The notes beneath the pieces were generated by a model. It was not told where the DNA came from and ran no database searches. It saw only the letters and a list, made by a program, of their open reading frames with translations. This document shows, one piece after another, positions 1,715 to 46,623 of a stretch of DNA of 64,000 nucleotides (within the stretch, counting starts at the first letter, position 1; the number at the start of each line of letters is the position of its first letter). Position numbers and translations under genes: made by a program. This DNA comes from a virus, in IMG/VR virus record IMGVR_UViG_3300030329_003954, positions 1 to 64,000 of that record; one strand, written 5' to 3'.

Positions 1715-4444
1715 ATGAAGTCCTTCCCTTACAACGCGATCATCACAAAGTCTCCTGAAGTGATAGACTCCTTATTTTTCCCCACGAACAGGCAGAGGAT
1801 AAGTTTTGATCAATTTATAAGGGACTTACCAGAGGAAGATAAATCAAACCTTCTTGTTCTATCGCCAGGAAGAGGTTATGGCTTTTTAGAGCTTGACATA
1901 AACTTTCCTGAAGGTGGGGGTGTTAATAACTATGTTAATCTTAAGATGGTTGATACTTCAGAAATTGTTGATTTCTTTGTTGTTGATAGACATCCCGTGG
2001 ACAATGAAGTTATTAGAAGATTAGAAAGATCTGATAATTTTTTTAAAGACAAGATCCAAAAGCTAATAAAGAATTCAGGAAGGTTTTACTTGTCTTTTGG
2101 TGTTGGTGATGATCTTAGAAAATGGTCTGGCCCATACTCAATGCAGATTAGCAATGCGGTCATGAACGTAAATGCTGATGGAGTTAGGGAGATTGATTTA
2201 GGCTTTATTCCAAATCCTGAAAGTATTAAAGTATTCACAAACAGATTTTTTAATGACGCTGGTTACGCTCAGTTAGAATCCAAATTTGATTCTAAATCTA
2301 GAAAGAACAAAGAGATAGAAATAAGGACTGATTGTATTTTTGATGTTGAAAACGGCAGTCTCCCAGTTCGAAAGCCAGGGGGAGATAGTAGATGGAATTA
2401 CTGGGTTAGAAGAGTAGTAGCTGGATATTTAAACAACCTATACCCAGGCACGCCTGTCGGAAACATACTACCCTTATTTGGAACTGATCTTGATAGGCCA
2501 GCCGTAGGATCTAGTGATATAACTAATGGGATAATTAATATACCAAATGTAAATGAAAAAACAATTCTGGATCACGCTAAAAACTTAGCGAAGTTGGGGA
2601 TACTAATTACCGTTGAAGAAGAAGTTAAAGAATCTAAACCCAAAAAAGATCAAACTGAAAAAGTCTTACAGCAAAAGAGAGGACCTAACTCTACTATTGA
2701 TTCTGGCACAGTGGACTCTCCTGTGGATGCATTTAAGCAAGAAACAATTCCTGTTGACCCTGCATTTAAATCAGGCACAATTTCTGTAGACGCCGCACCT
2801 CTTGACCCATCAAGATTCGTAGCTGGAGAGTCGGACAATGAAAGGACAAATCGCATTGCTCGTGAGAGAAGAGAACTGAACTCATTAACCAGAGGGGGAC
2901 GTAGTATCCCAAGATCTAGCCAACCACCCTCTAGGGAAGAGATTCTTAATCGTTTAGCAGATGGGATATCACAGCCGGTGGTCGAATCTAAAGTAGCAAG
3001 ACAAAATCCAGACTATCTAGCAGAGACTGACAATCTTCTACCTCCAGTCATTAAGAAAGCTAAAATGACTATGATGCATAGGTGGAAAGCCGAGGACACC
3101 TCAGACTCTCTAAACACTTTAATGGCTCCCCTCTACACTTTTTACAGAGGTGTGAGACAACGTCGAAGCAAGAACATTCAATTTACAATGTTTGAAGAGA
3201 CAGACTCACACATTCTCAAATTCTTGAAAGAGTCTAATGTGATAGAGGACGAAACCAAGCCCGTAATTGTTTTTGGTGAGAAAGAGATAATTAAAAACCT
3301 AATGTACCCTGCTCAGGAGTATGCCACTGTAGCTGCCGCTCATGAAAATAATGAGTTCAAAGACTTCCAAGGCTCTGCTGCTGGAAGTGAAGTTGGATTT
3401 GAATCAACTTTTACATACAACCCCACGGGCCGCTTGGGTGATTGGCCTAGGTATTCTAAGAAATTTGTAAATCACTTTTACAATTCTGTCAGAGGCCGCA
3501 CTTCTTCTTTCGGGGAGGCGATCGACTTTGGACCTTTCACTAAATCATTGAAAGATAAGGTAAAAGGCAGTGATTTGGTTTTCATGCATAATGTAAAAAA
3601 CACAAATGTTTTAGACGTTAGGTTTGAGAATGTAGGGTATTACGCGAGTTTATTAAGTTTAGCTGCGGAGTCTAAACTATTATCGGTGGCAAACAACAAA
3701 GCAACTTCTGAAATAATATCTGATAACAGATTGGGCTTATCGGAGATAGCTGAATACGTTTCTAAGAAAACAAAAGACATTCCAAAAGACGATATTAAGT
3801 TAAACGTCTTGGAGATGTTAAAAAAAGATAAAGGGCTTAAGAGACTTGTATTTTTAAAAGATGATTTAAAAAATACAAAAGTCGTAGACTTTTTAGATGT
3901 TATCACGTTCTTAGTAACAGGTGATGCCCTCCCTTCCCCAGGCCCCGTTGTAAAGGTACGACCTGGAGAGAGGCACAAAGTTTATGCTGATGTTCTAGAG
4001 GATATAAGCAAGTATACTATAAATGCAGATGTTAGAACCGTTCCATTCTTTAATCAACCCAAGCTTTTTGGAAGAGAGTGTTTTCTTTTTGGATTGAGCA
4101 ATAAAGTTGTCGGATCCATTCTAGATAAAACAAAAACATACGCTCCCTTTACCGGAAGATATCTAGTAGTGGGGACTAGACACTACATGTCTAGCAATGA
4201 TGCATTTTCAAGTTTTAAGTTGTTAAGAATAGATGCAGTGGGGAATCCTACTCAAGAGTCATTGGACATTTTAAACATGACCATTGGTGAGTTTGTGGGG
4301 GAGTTTATGAGTTACATGAACGTGAGGGTAGGAGAGGAGGAAGACCTAGAAAAGCTTGCTCAACGTGGTGAAGAGCGCGGTCTGTTTATTAAACCGGCTA
4401 TTCAAAGGTTTGTTAACTATTTTAAAAACTTATTTACGGATTAA
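1715..4444 (+). CDS. probable baseplate hub protein (gp27-like role)
   Basis: 909 residues, far longer than T4 gp27. It lies between gp53 and the gp5-like spike, where a hub is expected. Near the C-terminus (about 800-850) it has FTGRYLVVGTRHYMSS followed by a strand with KLLRID, the pattern of the beta-barrel in phage hub proteins of the gp27/gpD type. Residues about 310-440 are a low-complexity Ser/Pro/Asp/Lys-rich stretch, perhaps a linker or inserted surface loop. The hub clamps the spike and caps the tube. The assignment rests on position and the short C-terminal pattern, so moderate confidence. Confidence 0.55.
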   Translation: MKSFPYNAIITKSPEVIDSLFFPTNRQRISFDQFIRDLPEEDKSNLLVLSPGRGYGFLELDINFPEGGGVNNYVNLKMVDTSEIVDFFVVDRHPVDNEVIRRLERSDNFFKDKIQKLIKNSGRFYLSFGVGDDLRKWSGPYSMQISNAVMNVNADGVREIDLGFIPNPESIKVFTNRFFNDAGYAQLESKFDSKSRKNKEIEIRTDCIFDVENGSLPVRKPGGDSRWNYWVRRVVAGYLNNLYPGTPVGNILPLFGTDLDRPAVGSSDITNGIINIPNVNEKTILDHAKNLAKLGILITVEEEVKESKPKKDQTEKVLQQKRGPNSTIDSGTVDSPVDAFKQETIPVDPAFKSGTISVDAAPLDPSRFVAGESDNERTNRIARERRELNSLTRGGRSIPRSSQPPSREEILNRLADGISQPVVESKVARQNPDYLAETDNLLPPVIKKAKMTMMHRWKAEDTSDSLNTLMAPLYTFYRGVRQRRSKNIQFTMFEETDSHILKFLKESNVIEDETKPVIVFGEKEIIKNLMYPAQEYATVAAAHENNEFKDFQGSAAGSEVGFESTFTYNPTGRLGDWPRYSKKFVNHFYNSVRGRTSSFGEAIDFGPFTKSLKDKVKGSDLVFMHNVKNTNVLDVRFENVGYYASLLSLAAESKLLSVANNKATSEIISDNRLGLSEIAEYVSKKTKDIPKDDIKLNVLEMLKKDKGLKRLVFLKDDLKNTKVVDFLDVITFLVTGDALPSPGPVVKVRPGERHKVYADVLEDISKYTINADVRTVPFFNQPKLFGRECFLFGLSNKVVGSILDKTKTYAPFTGRYLVVGTRHYMSSNDAFSSFKLLRIDAVGNPTQESLDILNMTIGEFVGEFMSYMNVRVGEEEDLEKLAQRGEERGLFIKPAIQRFVNYFKNLFTD

Positions 4445-4445
4445 A

Positions 4446-5531
4446 ATGAAAATAGTAAAAGGACAAGTTGTATCGAATGTTGACGGAACTAGGTCAGGTG
4501 TGTTCATGGCAAAGTTTCCTAGCATAAACGCAGGGGCTCATCCAGTTACTTACACTTCACCGTTTTTCAAAGTAAACGCTGGAGGTTTTCTTGCGATACC
4601 CGAGGTGAACGATGAAATTTTAGCAGTCTTTAATCCTGATCCACCAGACGATGAGCAGATGTTTTACTATCATTCTACCATCGTATCTAAGAAAAACCTA
4701 AGCTCTGAAGAAGAGAATTCTAACTTCAAGGTTATACCAGACAATGATAGGCAAGTTTATGGTGATAAATCAAAGCCAGTCATGCAGCATTTTACAAATC
4801 ATGCAGGTGCTGGATTATACATCCATAGAGAATTTACAGCGTCTAAAATCAGCAATAACGTCACCATGCGATCTGAAGGTGGTGAAGAGGTGAACGTGGG
4901 TCCGGTGGGTGTTCAAATACGAAATGCTGATGGAGATTCCATTATTTTAAATGGGGCGGAGCCTAATGATGCTTACGCAGCTAGATCTCTCTCGATCGAG
5001 ACCAGGGGATCCCAGCAGTATAAATGCACTGGCTCAGATATTAACATGCGTATTGTAGACGGTGGAGATATTAATATTGAGAACAACTCAACAGGACTTA
5101 TGTCCTTGGGTAAGTGGTTTGGTAATATCAGACTAAAAAGTAGGTTTCGTAATATTGATTTAGCAGCCCTTGGTCCTGCAAGTCATGTAAATATCTATAC
5201 ACTTGGAGCAACCATTCAAGTAGATGGAACAGGAGCAGTGAAAGTTTTAGCAGCAGGAAATATAGATTTTAATAGTGCTGGCTCGATTAATCTTAATGGA
5301 GCTTTGGGCGTTAATATCTTTGGAGGTCAGGGACTTAATTTAGGATCAACAGGTTCAGTGGCCCTAAATGGGGCTAGCATCCTTCAGAATGGGATTCCTC
5401 TATTATTCTCGGCAGGAGCACCTGGATCCGATTTTACTAATAGCACACCCGTCCCTGGCGGTGCTGGCATACCTGCTCCTCCACCAACTTTCACACCTAA
5501 CGATTATCTTGATCCTGGAGGTGCAGTTTAA
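4446..5531 (+). CDS. gp5: baseplate central spike, gp5-like, without lysozyme domain
   Basis: 361 residues from the ATG at 4446; an upstream in-frame start at 4356 lies inside the hub gene and is rejected. Residues 1-65 look like the OB-fold of gp5/VgrG spikes (KGQVVSNVDGTRSGVFMAKF, then GGFLAIPEVNDEILAVF). The C-terminal half is a repeating Asn/Gly/Ala pattern (VDGTGAVKVLAAGNIDF, SAGSINLNG) typical of the triple-stranded beta-prism needle. The last 40 residues are Pro/Gly-rich. No lysozyme domain like that of T4 gp5 is present, so cell-wall digestion must come from another protein. It overlaps the next gene by one base. Confidence 0.75.
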   Translation: MKIVKGQVVSNVDGTRSGVFMAKFPSINAGAHPVTYTSPFFKVNAGGFLAIPEVNDEILAVFNPDPPDDEQMFYYHSTIVSKKNLSSEEENSNFKVIPDNDRQVYGDKSKPVMQHFTNHAGAGLYIHREFTASKISNNVTMRSEGGEEVNVGPVGVQIRNADGDSIILNGAEPNDAYAARSLSIETRGSQQYKCTGSDINMRIVDGGDINIENNSTGLMSLGKWFGNIRLKSRFRNIDLAALGPASHVNIYTLGATIQVDGTGAVKVLAAGNIDFNSAGSINLNGALGVNIFGGQGLNLGSTGSVALNGASILQNGIPLLFSAGAPGSDFTNSTPVPGGAGIPAPPPTFTPNDYLDPGGAV

Positions 5532-42940: not shown

Positions 42941-43303
42941 ATGGATAAAGTATCATTATCGTTTAAGGATACCAAATTTAAATTAGTTGAACGCAGTAGA
43001 GGACGTATGAAAATTCAGATTAAGTTTTCCAAGGAAGAAGCCGAGGGCTTCAAGAACTTTTGTAAACTCAAGCCACCAGAACTTGAGGATGACACCTTTT
43101 ATAAGCAAATCTTCTTTGCTGGTTGTAACGCAATGACTGAGCAGATTCAGTCGTTGGTTGAAGCTCATAAAGCCTCTCAGGAGGAAGGAGTGACTGAGGA
43201 TGTAGCAGGGGTTGAACCTCTCAGTCCTGATGGAAAAGATCTTATTCAAGAAGACGATGGTCACCAAGATGAGCAAACAGAAGAACAACTTCAAGACAAA
43301 TAG
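42941..43303 (+). CDS. small acidic-tailed protein in the sigma-factor region, function unknown
   Basis: 120 residues from the ATG at 42941; a start at 42779 would fall inside the divergent nuclease gene. The N-terminal half is basic (SFKDTKFKLVERSRGRMKIQ, FSKEEAEGFKNFC), the middle has YKQIFFAGCNAMTEQ, and the last 40 residues are acidic (Glu, Asp, Gln). The size and mixed charge would suit a small transcription cofactor such as T4 gp33 near the sigma gene, but the sequence does not resemble gp33, so this is only a suggestion. Confidence 0.6.
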   Translation: MDKVSLSFKDTKFKLVERSRGRMKIQIKFSKEEAEGFKNFCKLKPPELEDDTFYKQIFFAGCNAMTEQIQSLVEAHKASQEEGVTEDVAGVEPLSPDGKDLIQEDDGHQDEQTEEQLQDK

Positions 43304-43640
43304 TATCCAAAACTCGAAGCATTTGAGTTCTATTGTAACTTCAAATATTGAGAGTAAGCAAAACTCGTACTACCTTATCACCAACACATGGGATAAGGTT
43401 TGCAATCATTTCAACGATAGGCTTCCGTCAGATGGCACTACGGATTTAAACGTTGTAGACATTTTTAATGTGCCTAATGCCCTGGACGTAATTAAGTCCG
43501 CGATTAAATCTCATAGAGAGACAATATCAACATCCTGTCTCTCGCGTTATGACCAACTACCCATGTTGGTTGTGATTCATAAGTCCTTCCCAAGAGTCGT
43601 ATCTTATAATGGCTCAGTTGGCGCAGAGATTGGAGTCTAG
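43257..43640 (+). CDS. small hypothetical protein overlapping the preceding gene
   Basis: 127 residues from ATG 43257, with AGAAG a few bases upstream; ATG 43269 (four residues shorter) is also possible. It overlaps the previous gene by 47 bases and its stop overlaps that of the convergent sigma gene. The N-terminus is Lys/Asn-rich. The rest has YYLITNTWDKVCNHFNDRLP and a final LVVIHKSFPRVVSYNG, looking like a small folded domain. No family recognised. Confidence 0.5.
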   Translation: MVTKMSKQKNNFKTNSIQNSKHLSSIVTSNIESKQNSYYLITNTWDKVCNHFNDRLPSDGTTDLNVVDIFNVPNALDVIKSAIKSHRETISTSCLSRYDQLPMLVVIHKSFPRVVSYNGSVGAEIGV

Positions 43641-43990
43641 ATAGAGCTTGGATCCTTAGGAGTACCCATTTTATGGCTCCTATAGGATTCAAGTTTTTCG
43701 TTATACTTCTTGTTCTTGGAGTATAGAAGGCGTAGGTTATTCAGTATTACTGTTGTGAAGTAATTGAAAGCCTGCCCAGATTCCCTGTTGAAGTTTTTGA
43801 GTACTTTAAGTATAAGTAGGAAGCATTCCTGTTTAGCTTCTTCATGATCAACATTAAACTTGAAAGACAACATGAGTCTATTGATTAATATGTCGAACAT
43901 GTTGAACAGTTCATCCTCGTTAGTTCGAATATCAAGTTTGAATTCTTGGATCAAATCCTCAAATCTTTTGTTGTCAATATAATAACTCAC
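43637..43990 (-). CDS. gp55: late sigma factor, T4 gp55-like
   Basis: 117 residues, GTG start. The core HEEAKQECFLLILKVLKNFN followed by GQAFNYFTTVILNNLRLLY and KNKKYNEKL is the sigma region 2 pattern of T4 gp55 and its relatives, which binds core RNA polymerase and melts late promoters. T4 gp55 has 185 residues; here only region 2 and a short tail remain. It faces the polymerase gene at 44008 across 17 bases containing one symmetrical promoter box. The factor probably reads the promoter motif used in this phage. Confidence 0.85.
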   Translation of the reverse strand: MSYYIDNKRFEDLIQEFKLDIRTNEDELFNMFDILINRLMLSFKFNVDHEEAKQECFLLILKVLKNFNRESGQAFNYFTTVILNNLRLLYSKNKKYNEKLESYRSHKMGTPKDPSSI

Positions 43991-44007: not shown

Positions 44008-45042
44008 ATGCCACAACTAAGTTTCCAGGGTGTCAACTCCAAGTGTGAGGGTTGCCCTGCGTTGAAGATGAATCTACCGACGCATACGATCTTGGACTAT
44101 GAGTACAAAAACACTCCAGTAGACATCCTCTTCATATCTGATTCAGCAAAGATGTTTGAAGGTGAGTTTACCGCCTTTCGACCGCAAGAGTACAGCATCA
44201 TCCAGCGTGAGCTTGCCAGATTTTCAAAGGATTGGGATGTTGGCTATACAACCGCTGTAAAGTGTCCCAATATTACTTCTGAGAATCTCAGCACTGGTAT
44301 AAAAAAATCATGTAAGATTCACCTACATGATACAATCGATCACTACAAGCCTCGACTTGTCTTCGCTTGTGGAAAGGTCGCGACCACCCTTTTATATGGT
44401 AAAGCAAAGGAGGAGAGTAAGATTCGAGGCAAGGTTGATACCTTGGCAACGGAGACTGGGACAGAGTTCCAGGTTGTCCCAGTTATTCACCCGTTCCAAG
44501 TCGTGGCAGAGCCTAAGAACGCTTATCTTTTCAGGACCGACCTAGAGAATGCTCTAAATAACGAGCTATTAGGGAAGGCTACAGACGCTCAAGTGGACCA
44601 TACTCTTGCTTTGAGCATAGGGGAATTGGACGAGGTAAGTGGTGATTTTATTGATACCAACATGGATCTTGCTGTGGATATTGAGACTACGGGTCTCAAT
44701 TTTCTTGAGGATACAATTCACACAATCTCAATGACGCTTGTCAATCGCGATAGTGGTGAGCTTGGCAGAACCTTAGTATTACCCATTGATCATAAAGAAG
44801 CAAAGCTTGGTTATAAGGTGAAAGGTGCTTTTATGCGATTCATCTGTCAGGCTATGGCGAATAAAAATAACAGAAAGATATTGCAGAATGCGGGTTTCGA
44901 CCTTAAGTTCTTGAAGAGGTATGGTGTCGAAGATGTGTATAATGTTTACGACACTAAACTCCTCCAACACCTATACAAAGAGGATGTTCCTAAGTCGCTT
45001 GCTGATCTCGTGTACTACTACTTCCCAGAAGAAAAGTTCTAA
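44008..45042 (+). CDS. family 4 uracil-DNA-glycosylase-like domain fused to DNA polymerase I exonuclease domain
   Basis: 344 residues. Residues 1-190 are UDG family 4-like: Cys13 and Cys16 (CEGC), Cys86 (TTAVKCPN) and Cys102 (KKSCKIHL) match the four iron-sulphur cysteines, and VPVIHPFQV fits the glycosylase motif. Residues about 220-344 are a DnaQ/Pol I-type 3'-5' exonuclease: DIETTGL (Asp224, Glu226) and NAGFDLKFL. Exonuclease motif III is missing here and lies in the next frame. A UDG-like domain in front of a family A polymerase is, as I recall, known from phage SPO1. Ends TAATG, so the next gene starts inside its stop codon. Confidence 0.85.
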   Translation: MPQLSFQGVNSKCEGCPALKMNLPTHTILDYEYKNTPVDILFISDSAKMFEGEFTAFRPQEYSIIQRELARFSKDWDVGYTTAVKCPNITSENLSTGIKKSCKIHLHDTIDHYKPRLVFACGKVATTLLYGKAKEESKIRGKVDTLATETGTEFQVVPVIHPFQVVAEPKNAYLFRTDLENALNNELLGKATDAQVDHTLALSIGELDEVSGDFIDTNMDLAVDIETTGLNFLEDTIHTISMTLVNRDSGELGRTLVLPIDHKEAKLGYKVKGAFMRFICQAMANKNNRKILQNAGFDLKFLKRYGVEDVYNVYDTKLLQHLYKEDVPKSLADLVYYYFPEEKF

Positions 45043-45566
45043 TGCTAACAGTTGAAGGTAAGAAGTTTGATTGGAAGAATATCCCATTGATTCAATGCGT
45101 TGAGGGTAATGCAAAGGATACCTATGCCACCGCAAAGGTGTATGTAAAACTACTCGAAGAGGTTCGTCAGAAGAAGTTAGAGCACCTATACGAGAAGTTA
45201 ATCGCACCTCTGACAGTTGCCTTTCGTGACATGGAGTTTGAAGGATTGCTTATCGATGAGGATAAGCTCAACGAGTTGGATCAGCAACTTCAAGACAAGC
45301 TCAAACTGGCTGACATTGCTTTGCGAGACGCTGCTGGTTTGGAGGAGGACGCCAACCTTAATTCCACTAATCAGCTTGTGAAAATTATCTATTCATTTGA
45401 GAAGAATGATGAAGGTGAATGGATTCAAGTTGACGACTTCGGTCTTGGACTGTATCCTTTCGAGTTTACTAAAAAGGGCGCACCTTCTACCAACGAAGAA
45501 ACGTTGACTAAGGTGAAAGCCATGGTTGAAGAAGAGTTCACAGCGAGAGGCTTGAAGGTTGAATAA
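45042..45566 (+). CDS. DNA polymerase I middle part (end of exonuclease and start of polymerase thumb)
   Basis: 174 residues, start overlapping the previous stop (TAATG). Early on it has VEGNAKDTYATAKVYVKLLE, the exonuclease motif III, so the exonuclease domain is divided between two polypeptides. LYEKLIAPLTVAFRDMEFEG and LLIDEDKLNEL continue the pattern of the polymerase N-terminal/thumb region, and GAPSTNEETLTKV the usual family A motif. It ends within the start of the third part. Relative to the first gene the frame shifts by -1. Confidence 0.8.
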   Translation: MLTVEGKKFDWKNIPLIQCVEGNAKDTYATAKVYVKLLEEVRQKKLEHLYEKLIAPLTVAFRDMEFEGLLIDEDKLNELDQQLQDKLKLADIALRDAAGLEEDANLNSTNQLVKIIYSFEKNDEGEWIQVDDFGLGLYPFEFTKKGAPSTNEETLTKVKAMVEEEFTARGLKVE

Positions 45567-46623
45567 CGAAGAAGTAAGCATCGCCAAGGCAGTCCTGAAC
45601 AACATGTCGAATGACCAGTTGAAGGCTGCTAAGAAGTTCTTTGATCGTTTCTCGGAGTATAAAAAGCTGACCAAGCTTCACTCTGTTTACATTGAAGGTG
45701 CTCGCACCGCACTACAGAATACTGGTAACAGTAGAATGTATGTGAAGTATAACATCGATGGTACGGTTACAGGGCGAATCTCAAACTCTGGTGCCAACGT
45801 TGGTAGGAAGAAGACTGATAAAATTGGAGTGTCCTTCCACACTCTTCCTCGTGAGTCACTTGATGTAAATATTCGTGATTACGTGGTAGCCCCAGAGGGT
45901 CACGACTTTATCACGATCGACATGAAAGCCATGGAGCTAAGAGTTCTCGCTCATGTTGCCAATGAGGAGAACATGATTCACGCCTTTAAATCTGGCGTGG
46001 ACTTGCACAGCTATTCTGCTGGATTGACGTTCAATAAGGACCCCAAAGATGTGAGTAAACTTGAACGACAGATCGCGAAAGAAGTGAGCTTCTTAACAGT
46101 GTATGGCGGAACTGCATACACTCTTGCTTCGAAGCGTAACATTCCAGAGGATCGCGCTGAGGAGATTATCAATAGTTGGCTAGCGGCTTTCCCAGGTGTA
46201 GGCCGATACATGAACACTATCGACGAATACATTAAACAGTTTGGTTACGCTAAGACCATCTTCGGTCGTTATCGCCACCTCCCTAATGTCCGCTCACCAT
46301 TCAAGGGCGTCCGTCGCGAGGCGTTCCGACAAGGTTTGAACTTTACAATTCAATCTGCCGCCAGCGATATCCTACTGTGCGGTATGCTTGGTGTGATTGA
46401 GAAGCTTAAGGGTATGAAGGCTAAAGTTGTAGCCACTGTTCACGACTCAATTGAACTCATAGCTCCTAAAGAAGAGACTAGGAGGGTCGTTGAAATTGTT
46501 AGCGACGAGCTTGAAAACTACCACTATCTAAAAGACAACTTCAACATTCACTTGAAGGTACCGCTGGGTGTTGATGTTGAAGTTGGTTCTAGCTTTGGTA
46601 ATGGTGTTGAGTATGAACTTTAA
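45559..46623 (+). CDS. DNA polymerase I family A catalytic palm/fingers part
   Basis: 354 residues from TTG 45559, with GAGAGG eight bases upstream; it overlaps the previous gene by eight bases. Motif A is IDMKAMELRVLAH (Asp121, Glu126), motif B ERQIAKEVSFLTVYGG (Arg170, Lys174, Phe178, Tyr182) and motif C VATVHDSIEL (His295, Asp296; Ser instead of the usual Glu). The first 60 residues are the helical thumb tip (FFDRFSEYKKLTKLHSVYIE). All polymerase catalytic aspartates are present, so this part should be competent with the other two. It ends at a convergent stop shared with the glycosidase gene. Confidence 0.9.
   Translation: MNNEEVSIAKAVLNNMSNDQLKAAKKFFDRFSEYKKLTKLHSVYIEGARTALQNTGNSRMYVKYNIDGTVTGRISNSGANVGRKKTDKIGVSFHTLPRESLDVNIRDYVVAPEGHDFITIDMKAMELRVLAHVANEENMIHAFKSGVDLHSYSAGLTFNKDPKDVSKLERQIAKEVSFLTVYGGTAYTLASKRNIPEDRAEEIINSWLAAFPGVGRYMNTIDEYIKQFGYAKTIFGRYRHLPNVRSPFKGVRREAFRQGLNFTIQSAASDILLCGMLGVIEKLKGMKAKVVATVHDSIELIAPKEETRRVVEIVSDELENYHYLKDNFNIHLKVPLGVDVEVGSSFGNGVEYEL

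Follow-up and report, generated by a model that had tools for sequence, protein, structure and literature searches.

A predicted family A DNA polymerase encoded by three consecutive genes in uncultured T4-like phages

Family A polymerases are the textbook one-chain DNA polymerases, whereas in the locus described here the parts of such an enzyme are spread over three overlapping reading frames. The window analysed covers the opening 64,000 nucleotides of an IMG/VR virus record of 91,106 bases and carries the three ORFs on its plus strand: P1 (44008–45042, 344 aa), with a family-4-like Fe-S UDG fold and the first half of a 3'-5' exonuclease (motifs I and II); P2 (45042–45566, 174 aa), with the first half of the thumb preceded by exonuclease motif III, which includes the equivalent of Asp501; and P3 (45559–46623, 354 aa), with the remaining thumb, the palm and the fingers, including motifs A, B and C. 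Pfam assigned P1 to UDG (4e-7) and DNA_pol_A_exo1 (6e-11), P2 to the N-terminal edge of DNA_pol_A at a value under the curated cut-off (2.5e-3), and P3 to nearly the whole DNA_pol_A domain (5e-72). The family profile of P2 matched Klenow and Bst chains (2e-7), P2 matched PHROG 17 (1.7e-10), and P3 matched Bst pol I by profile (1e-64). Profile search also placed the three collinearly on PHROG 17, P1 at 546–785, P2 at 796–920 and P3 at 929–1237. Since these matches are sequential, the pieces together represent one ancestral polymerase with almost nothing lost at the joints, and an alignment with intact enzymes was likewise partitioned collinearly, nearly without gaps. As judged from these alignments, P1, P2 and P3 are consecutive pieces of one UDG-exonuclease-family A polymerase and share common ancestry with the one-chain enzymes. 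A first-pass annotation had read the three frames as parts of one polymerase, with exonuclease motifs I and II on the first, III on the second and motifs A, B and C on the third; the ORFs, the joints and the motif assignment were all borne out.

The residues expected of a polymerase core were found on P3. Motif A (45919–45936) spans D121 to E126 in the D-x4-E form seen in members of the group, and motif B (46066–46107) includes R170, K174, F178, which corresponds to Klenow Phe762, and Y182, as placed by alignment. Phe762 is kept in 132 of 135 sequences. Motif C (46438–46449) reads VHDS, with serine at the Glu883 position, and VHDS stands in place of VHDE in 130/135 sequences. With motifs A, B and C and the two catalytic aspartates, D121 and D296, P3 belongs to family A. 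The palm, fingers and thumb are usually on one polypeptide, whereas here each of the 137 distinct loci collected below has a thumb shared by P2 and P3; this is a difference of gene organisation and not of homology.

The exonuclease site is likewise distributed. Motif I, DIE (44677–44685), supplies P1 D224 and E226, equivalent to Klenow 355 and 357, and the motif II aspartate (44899–44901) is P1 D298, equivalent to Klenow 424; these residues are invariant in 68 P1 sequences. Motif III, GNAKD (45105–45119), occupies P2 residues 22–26, where D26 corresponds to Klenow Asp501; its G, N and D are invariant in 65 aligned sequences, and the pattern GN[AYC]xD was found in 124. All four acidic ligands are thus kept, Asp355, Glu357 and Asp424 on P1 and Asp501 on P2. 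On the other hand, the motif III tyrosine of DEDDy exonucleases (Y-x3-D), present at the Tyr497 position in all six intact phage enzymes aligned, is replaced by glycine in 124/124 P2 sequences with a recognisable motif. This replacement throughout the clade suggests that proofreading may be weak, altered or different.

The N-terminal domain of P1 (44008–44560) has a UDG fold, and its four cysteines of Fe-S type (C13, C16, C86 and C102) are invariant in 68 P1 sequences. Foldseek matched P1 to family 4 UDG and UdgX (E 2e-7), the best matches being UDG followed by the pol A exonuclease. In alignment to TM0511, however, SDSxK replaces GEGPG, the catalytic motif I of family 4 UDG (GE[AG]PG type), which makes glycosylase activity of P1 doubtful. 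The AF2 model of P1 had a mean pLDDT of 86.6 and contained the UDG fold and the exonuclease core, with values below 50 at residues 318–328 and 340–344; these stretches coincide in the model with the predicted site where P2 would pack. The AF2 model of P2 (pLDDT 84.3) was mostly helical, and its first 27 Foldseek matches were all family A polymerases, with E from 0.006 upward and a best probability near 1.

The two joints were located on Klenow in an alignment that also contained six intact phage enzymes. Joint 1 (45040–45044), a TAATG stop/start overlap, falls at Klenow 473/474 and separates exonuclease motif II from motif III. Joint 2 (45559–45566), where the ORFs share 8 bases and P3 begins with a TTG five bases ahead of the stop codon, falls in the thumb after Klenow ~613. 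Because the joints map to these positions and P2 D26 corresponds to Asp501, the exonuclease and the thumb are each divided over two chains. Around joint 2, ~45 extra residues (45504–45639), made up of the C-terminal tail of P2 and the N-terminal tail of P3, are absent from the six intact phage polymerases and Klenow; the tails were present in distant members of the clade too, and, lying on both sides of the cut, they probably form a new P2–P3 interface.

Relatives were collected in seven IMG/VR scans, with P3 identity to that of the window from 100% down to about 49%, and the loci with all three pieces were deduplicated by DNA to 137. All 137 were cut at the same two places, a recurrence far beyond what chance would give, and gene order was constant; the only fused gene belonged to a remote outgroup, L074, with 21% identity. 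The pieces were adjacent in 103 loci, and 34 had other DNA between P1 and P2, which contained genes wherever its content was read; in 33 of these it lay at that place only. The remaining one, L099, carried a 2OG-Fe(II) oxygenase gene (3274–3831 of that locus) at the first joint and a DUF6445 gene (4360–4986), at the second, between P2 and P3, and two others (L089 and L102) had opposite-strand ORFs between P1 and P2. In a P3 tree the split sequences grouped into a single clade (100/100) separate from the intact sequences, although the branches were long. Alignments in which short chains and fused reads were combined came out misaligned and were left out. Comparison with four close relatives gave dN/dS of 0.006–0.035 in the ORFs, with one P1 comparison saturated; these values, rough because dS was near saturation in several comparisons, show purifying selection on the polymerase ORFs at the level of sequence. 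Cultured-phage DNA searches with the window or L089 returned no match, and a scan of genome contigs found no cellular relative.

The start codons were conserved at both joints. At joint 1, an ATG began two bases past the first base of the stop in 76 of 111 distinct loci, with variants in single loci (TAG with GTG; a shift of frame with TAATATG). P3 started at −5 relative to joint 2 in 73/111 loci (GTG in 50, TTG in 16, ATG in 7), with other offsets elsewhere. A purine-rich SD-like motif (GGAG, GAGG or AGGA) preceded the P3 start in 93/110 loci and the P2 start in 44/107, both as raw counts. The frame relation, on the other hand, was variable: P2 was distributed over the three frames relative to P1 in 85, 14 and 12 loci, and P3 relative to P2 in 95, 14 and 2. 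Starts that are kept as ATG, GTG or TTG while the frame relation changes fit separate initiation and rule out frameshifting for the clade.

These data bear on the alternatives offered by the first-pass annotation, a functional split polymerase or a programmed frameshift, and on its view that an assembly error was less likely. Ribosomal frameshifting at both joints, which would yield one long polymerase, is suggested by the close overlaps of the ORFs and, in the window, by the return to the first frame after the two shifts. It is nevertheless refuted for the clade, and we consider it very improbable for this locus, given that each joint shows all three frame relations, starts are conserved, other genes intervene between pieces and no slippery heptamer was found in the window. 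Of the two alternatives, the functional split polymerase is thus supported and the frameshift excluded. An artefact of sequencing or assembly, or decay of the gene, has nothing in its favour beyond the split itself, and its probability is negligible in view of the low dN/dS, the conserved catalytic residues and the identical cuts. The search for homologous phage genomes with the same split, which the annotation had proposed as a check, had produced these cuts in 137 distinct loci on many independent contigs, so that an assembly error is excluded. The pieces might also be rejoined after translation by split inteins or at the RNA level by introns, since phage polymerase genes can carry elements of this type (MIJ3 pol B intein, PMC6892783). 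However, the overlaps of 1 and 8 bases leave no space for such a sequence, the pieces align to the polymerase right up to the joints without intein halves, and the region had no Rfam match; both elements were rejected, and the chance that either operates here is equally minute.

A more substantial alternative is that P3 alone is an exonuclease-free polymerase and that P1 and P2 are separate proteins with other roles. The loss of the exonuclease Tyr497 in the clade, the UDG domain that P1 carries of its own and the DNA that separates P1 from P2 in 34 loci are all consistent with this possibility. Yet P3 would lack half of a thumb; P2 is a fragment by fold, but its polymerase landmarks, including Asp501, are invariant; and neither the grouping of the three genes nor their order is broken in any of the 137 loci, despite the insertions. 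We therefore regard it as unlikely.

The three ORFs are three separate genes and very probably encode an obligate three-chain family A polymerase, the replicase of the phage. Where the genes are adjacent, they would be translated by stop/start coupling or reinitiation. P1 would contribute a domain of UDG-like Fe-S type and, of the four acidic ligands, the three that belong to the exonuclease core. P2 would add the fourth ligand (Asp501) and begin the thumb, which P3 would complete along with palm and fingers, and the tails at the second cut would make the P2–P3 contact. We infer that P1, P2 and P3 come together in one complex and that this complex copies DNA; the arrangement of residues further suggests that the proofreading site (Asp355, Glu357, Asp424 and Asp501) and the thumb would form only upon assembly. 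The genes of the record include T4-like head, sheath and baseplate genes together with a DnaB-type helicase, SSB and RNR. The 91 kb record has no DNA_pol_A other than P3, and likewise only one was found in each of six relatives of 92–131 kb. Searches of the record and of these six relatives detected neither pol B nor pol III alpha; all are metagenomic and possibly incomplete, so that a further polymerase could sit in the missing parts. On the sequences at hand, a large uncultured group of T4-like phages encodes its only recognisable DNA polymerase as three proteins.

Polymerases of this kind had been expected to be one protein, which holds for the cultured relatives checked. One-chain UDG-exonuclease-polymerase enzymes occur in Bacillus phage phi18, Lysinibacillus LysYB1, Streptomyces Zuko and Rhodobacter RcMenchie; they are 865–926 aa long, compared with 872 for P1, P2 and P3 together, and their polymerase and exonuclease motifs align; for LysYB1 and RcMenchie, the similarity to P1 was detected directly. 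These enzymes are about 22–35% identical to the split one, with about 30–35% in the nearest of the cultured phages. Unlike the split enzyme, the cultured enzymes are single proteins that have Tyr497 and lack the ~45 residues at joint 2. Phage pol A is also cut into separate ORFs in OM43 phages MEP401/402 and in most members of their group (PMC10580990), but there in two pieces with a small ORF between them, with the cut just before motif A in the palm, the exonuclease whole on one chain and the tyrosine retained; the cuts here, at Klenow 473/474 and after ~613, are different. Jumbo phages have a split pol III alpha, whose catalytic core is predicted to reconstitute from separate chains (PMC7824862); this is an unrelated family, in two pieces, with a family B replicase alongside. 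Pseudomonas phage MIJ3 resembles the present clade in a replicative polymerase split over ORFs, its pol B being in two ORFs with a split intein (PMC6892783), but the MIJ3 intein halves can rejoin the chains, whereas the present clade has no intein halves. Two-part phage splits are thus known, and no report of a three-part pol A split inside domains was found in the accessible literature, which included few subscription papers. Rhodothermus phage RM378 is another phage associated with a split polymerase. It was rejected as a counterpart, since homologues of all three pieces were absent from its first 50 kb and the exonuclease-like gene of this phage resembles the pol B type.

A stable three-chain form of the enzyme, with cuts inside two domains and retained by a widespread uncultured clade as its sole recognisable polymerase, would, if true, show that nature can reconstitute the family A fold, together with its proofreading site, from parts. 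It would offer natural cut points for engineered split polymerases and raises the question of whether proofreading is regulated via P1. Surveys that use phage polA as a marker gene may score these phages as truncated or exonuclease-free.

Two further genes lie upstream of P1. A thioredoxin-like protein without the CxxC pair is encoded at 43269–43640 on the plus strand (counterpart in relative L072 at 2812–3129), and a gene of this type lies within 1.8 kb upstream of P1 in 252/262 loci, duplicates included; its profile matches thioredoxin folds weakly (best E 0.002). T7 polymerase uses thioredoxin on its thumb, which makes a link between the thioredoxin-like protein and the polymerase a candidate by analogy. 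T7 gp5, like the putative assembly of P1–P3, is a family A replicase, and the mode could be similar if the thioredoxin-like protein binds the thumb. However, gp5 is one chain that uses host thioredoxin, whereas the protein here is phage-encoded, lacks CxxC and binds only putatively; no large thumb insertion was seen in P2. Tentatively, the T4-like clade may replicate by an obligate heterotrimeric family A polymerase with its proofreading site across P1 and P2, its thumb across P2 and P3 and an interface evolved at the cut, in which the thioredoxin-like protein is perhaps a further subunit acting on the thumb, as in T7. The thioredoxin-like protein is possibly a polymerase partner or part of late transcription control. 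Between its gene and P1, a small protein resembling sigma-70 region 2 is encoded on the minus strand (43637–43990; E 2.5e-4, just under the curated cut-off). Such a gene was found in several lineages, including L072 (3128–3472, minus strand), and the protein could be a late sigma factor like T4 gp55.
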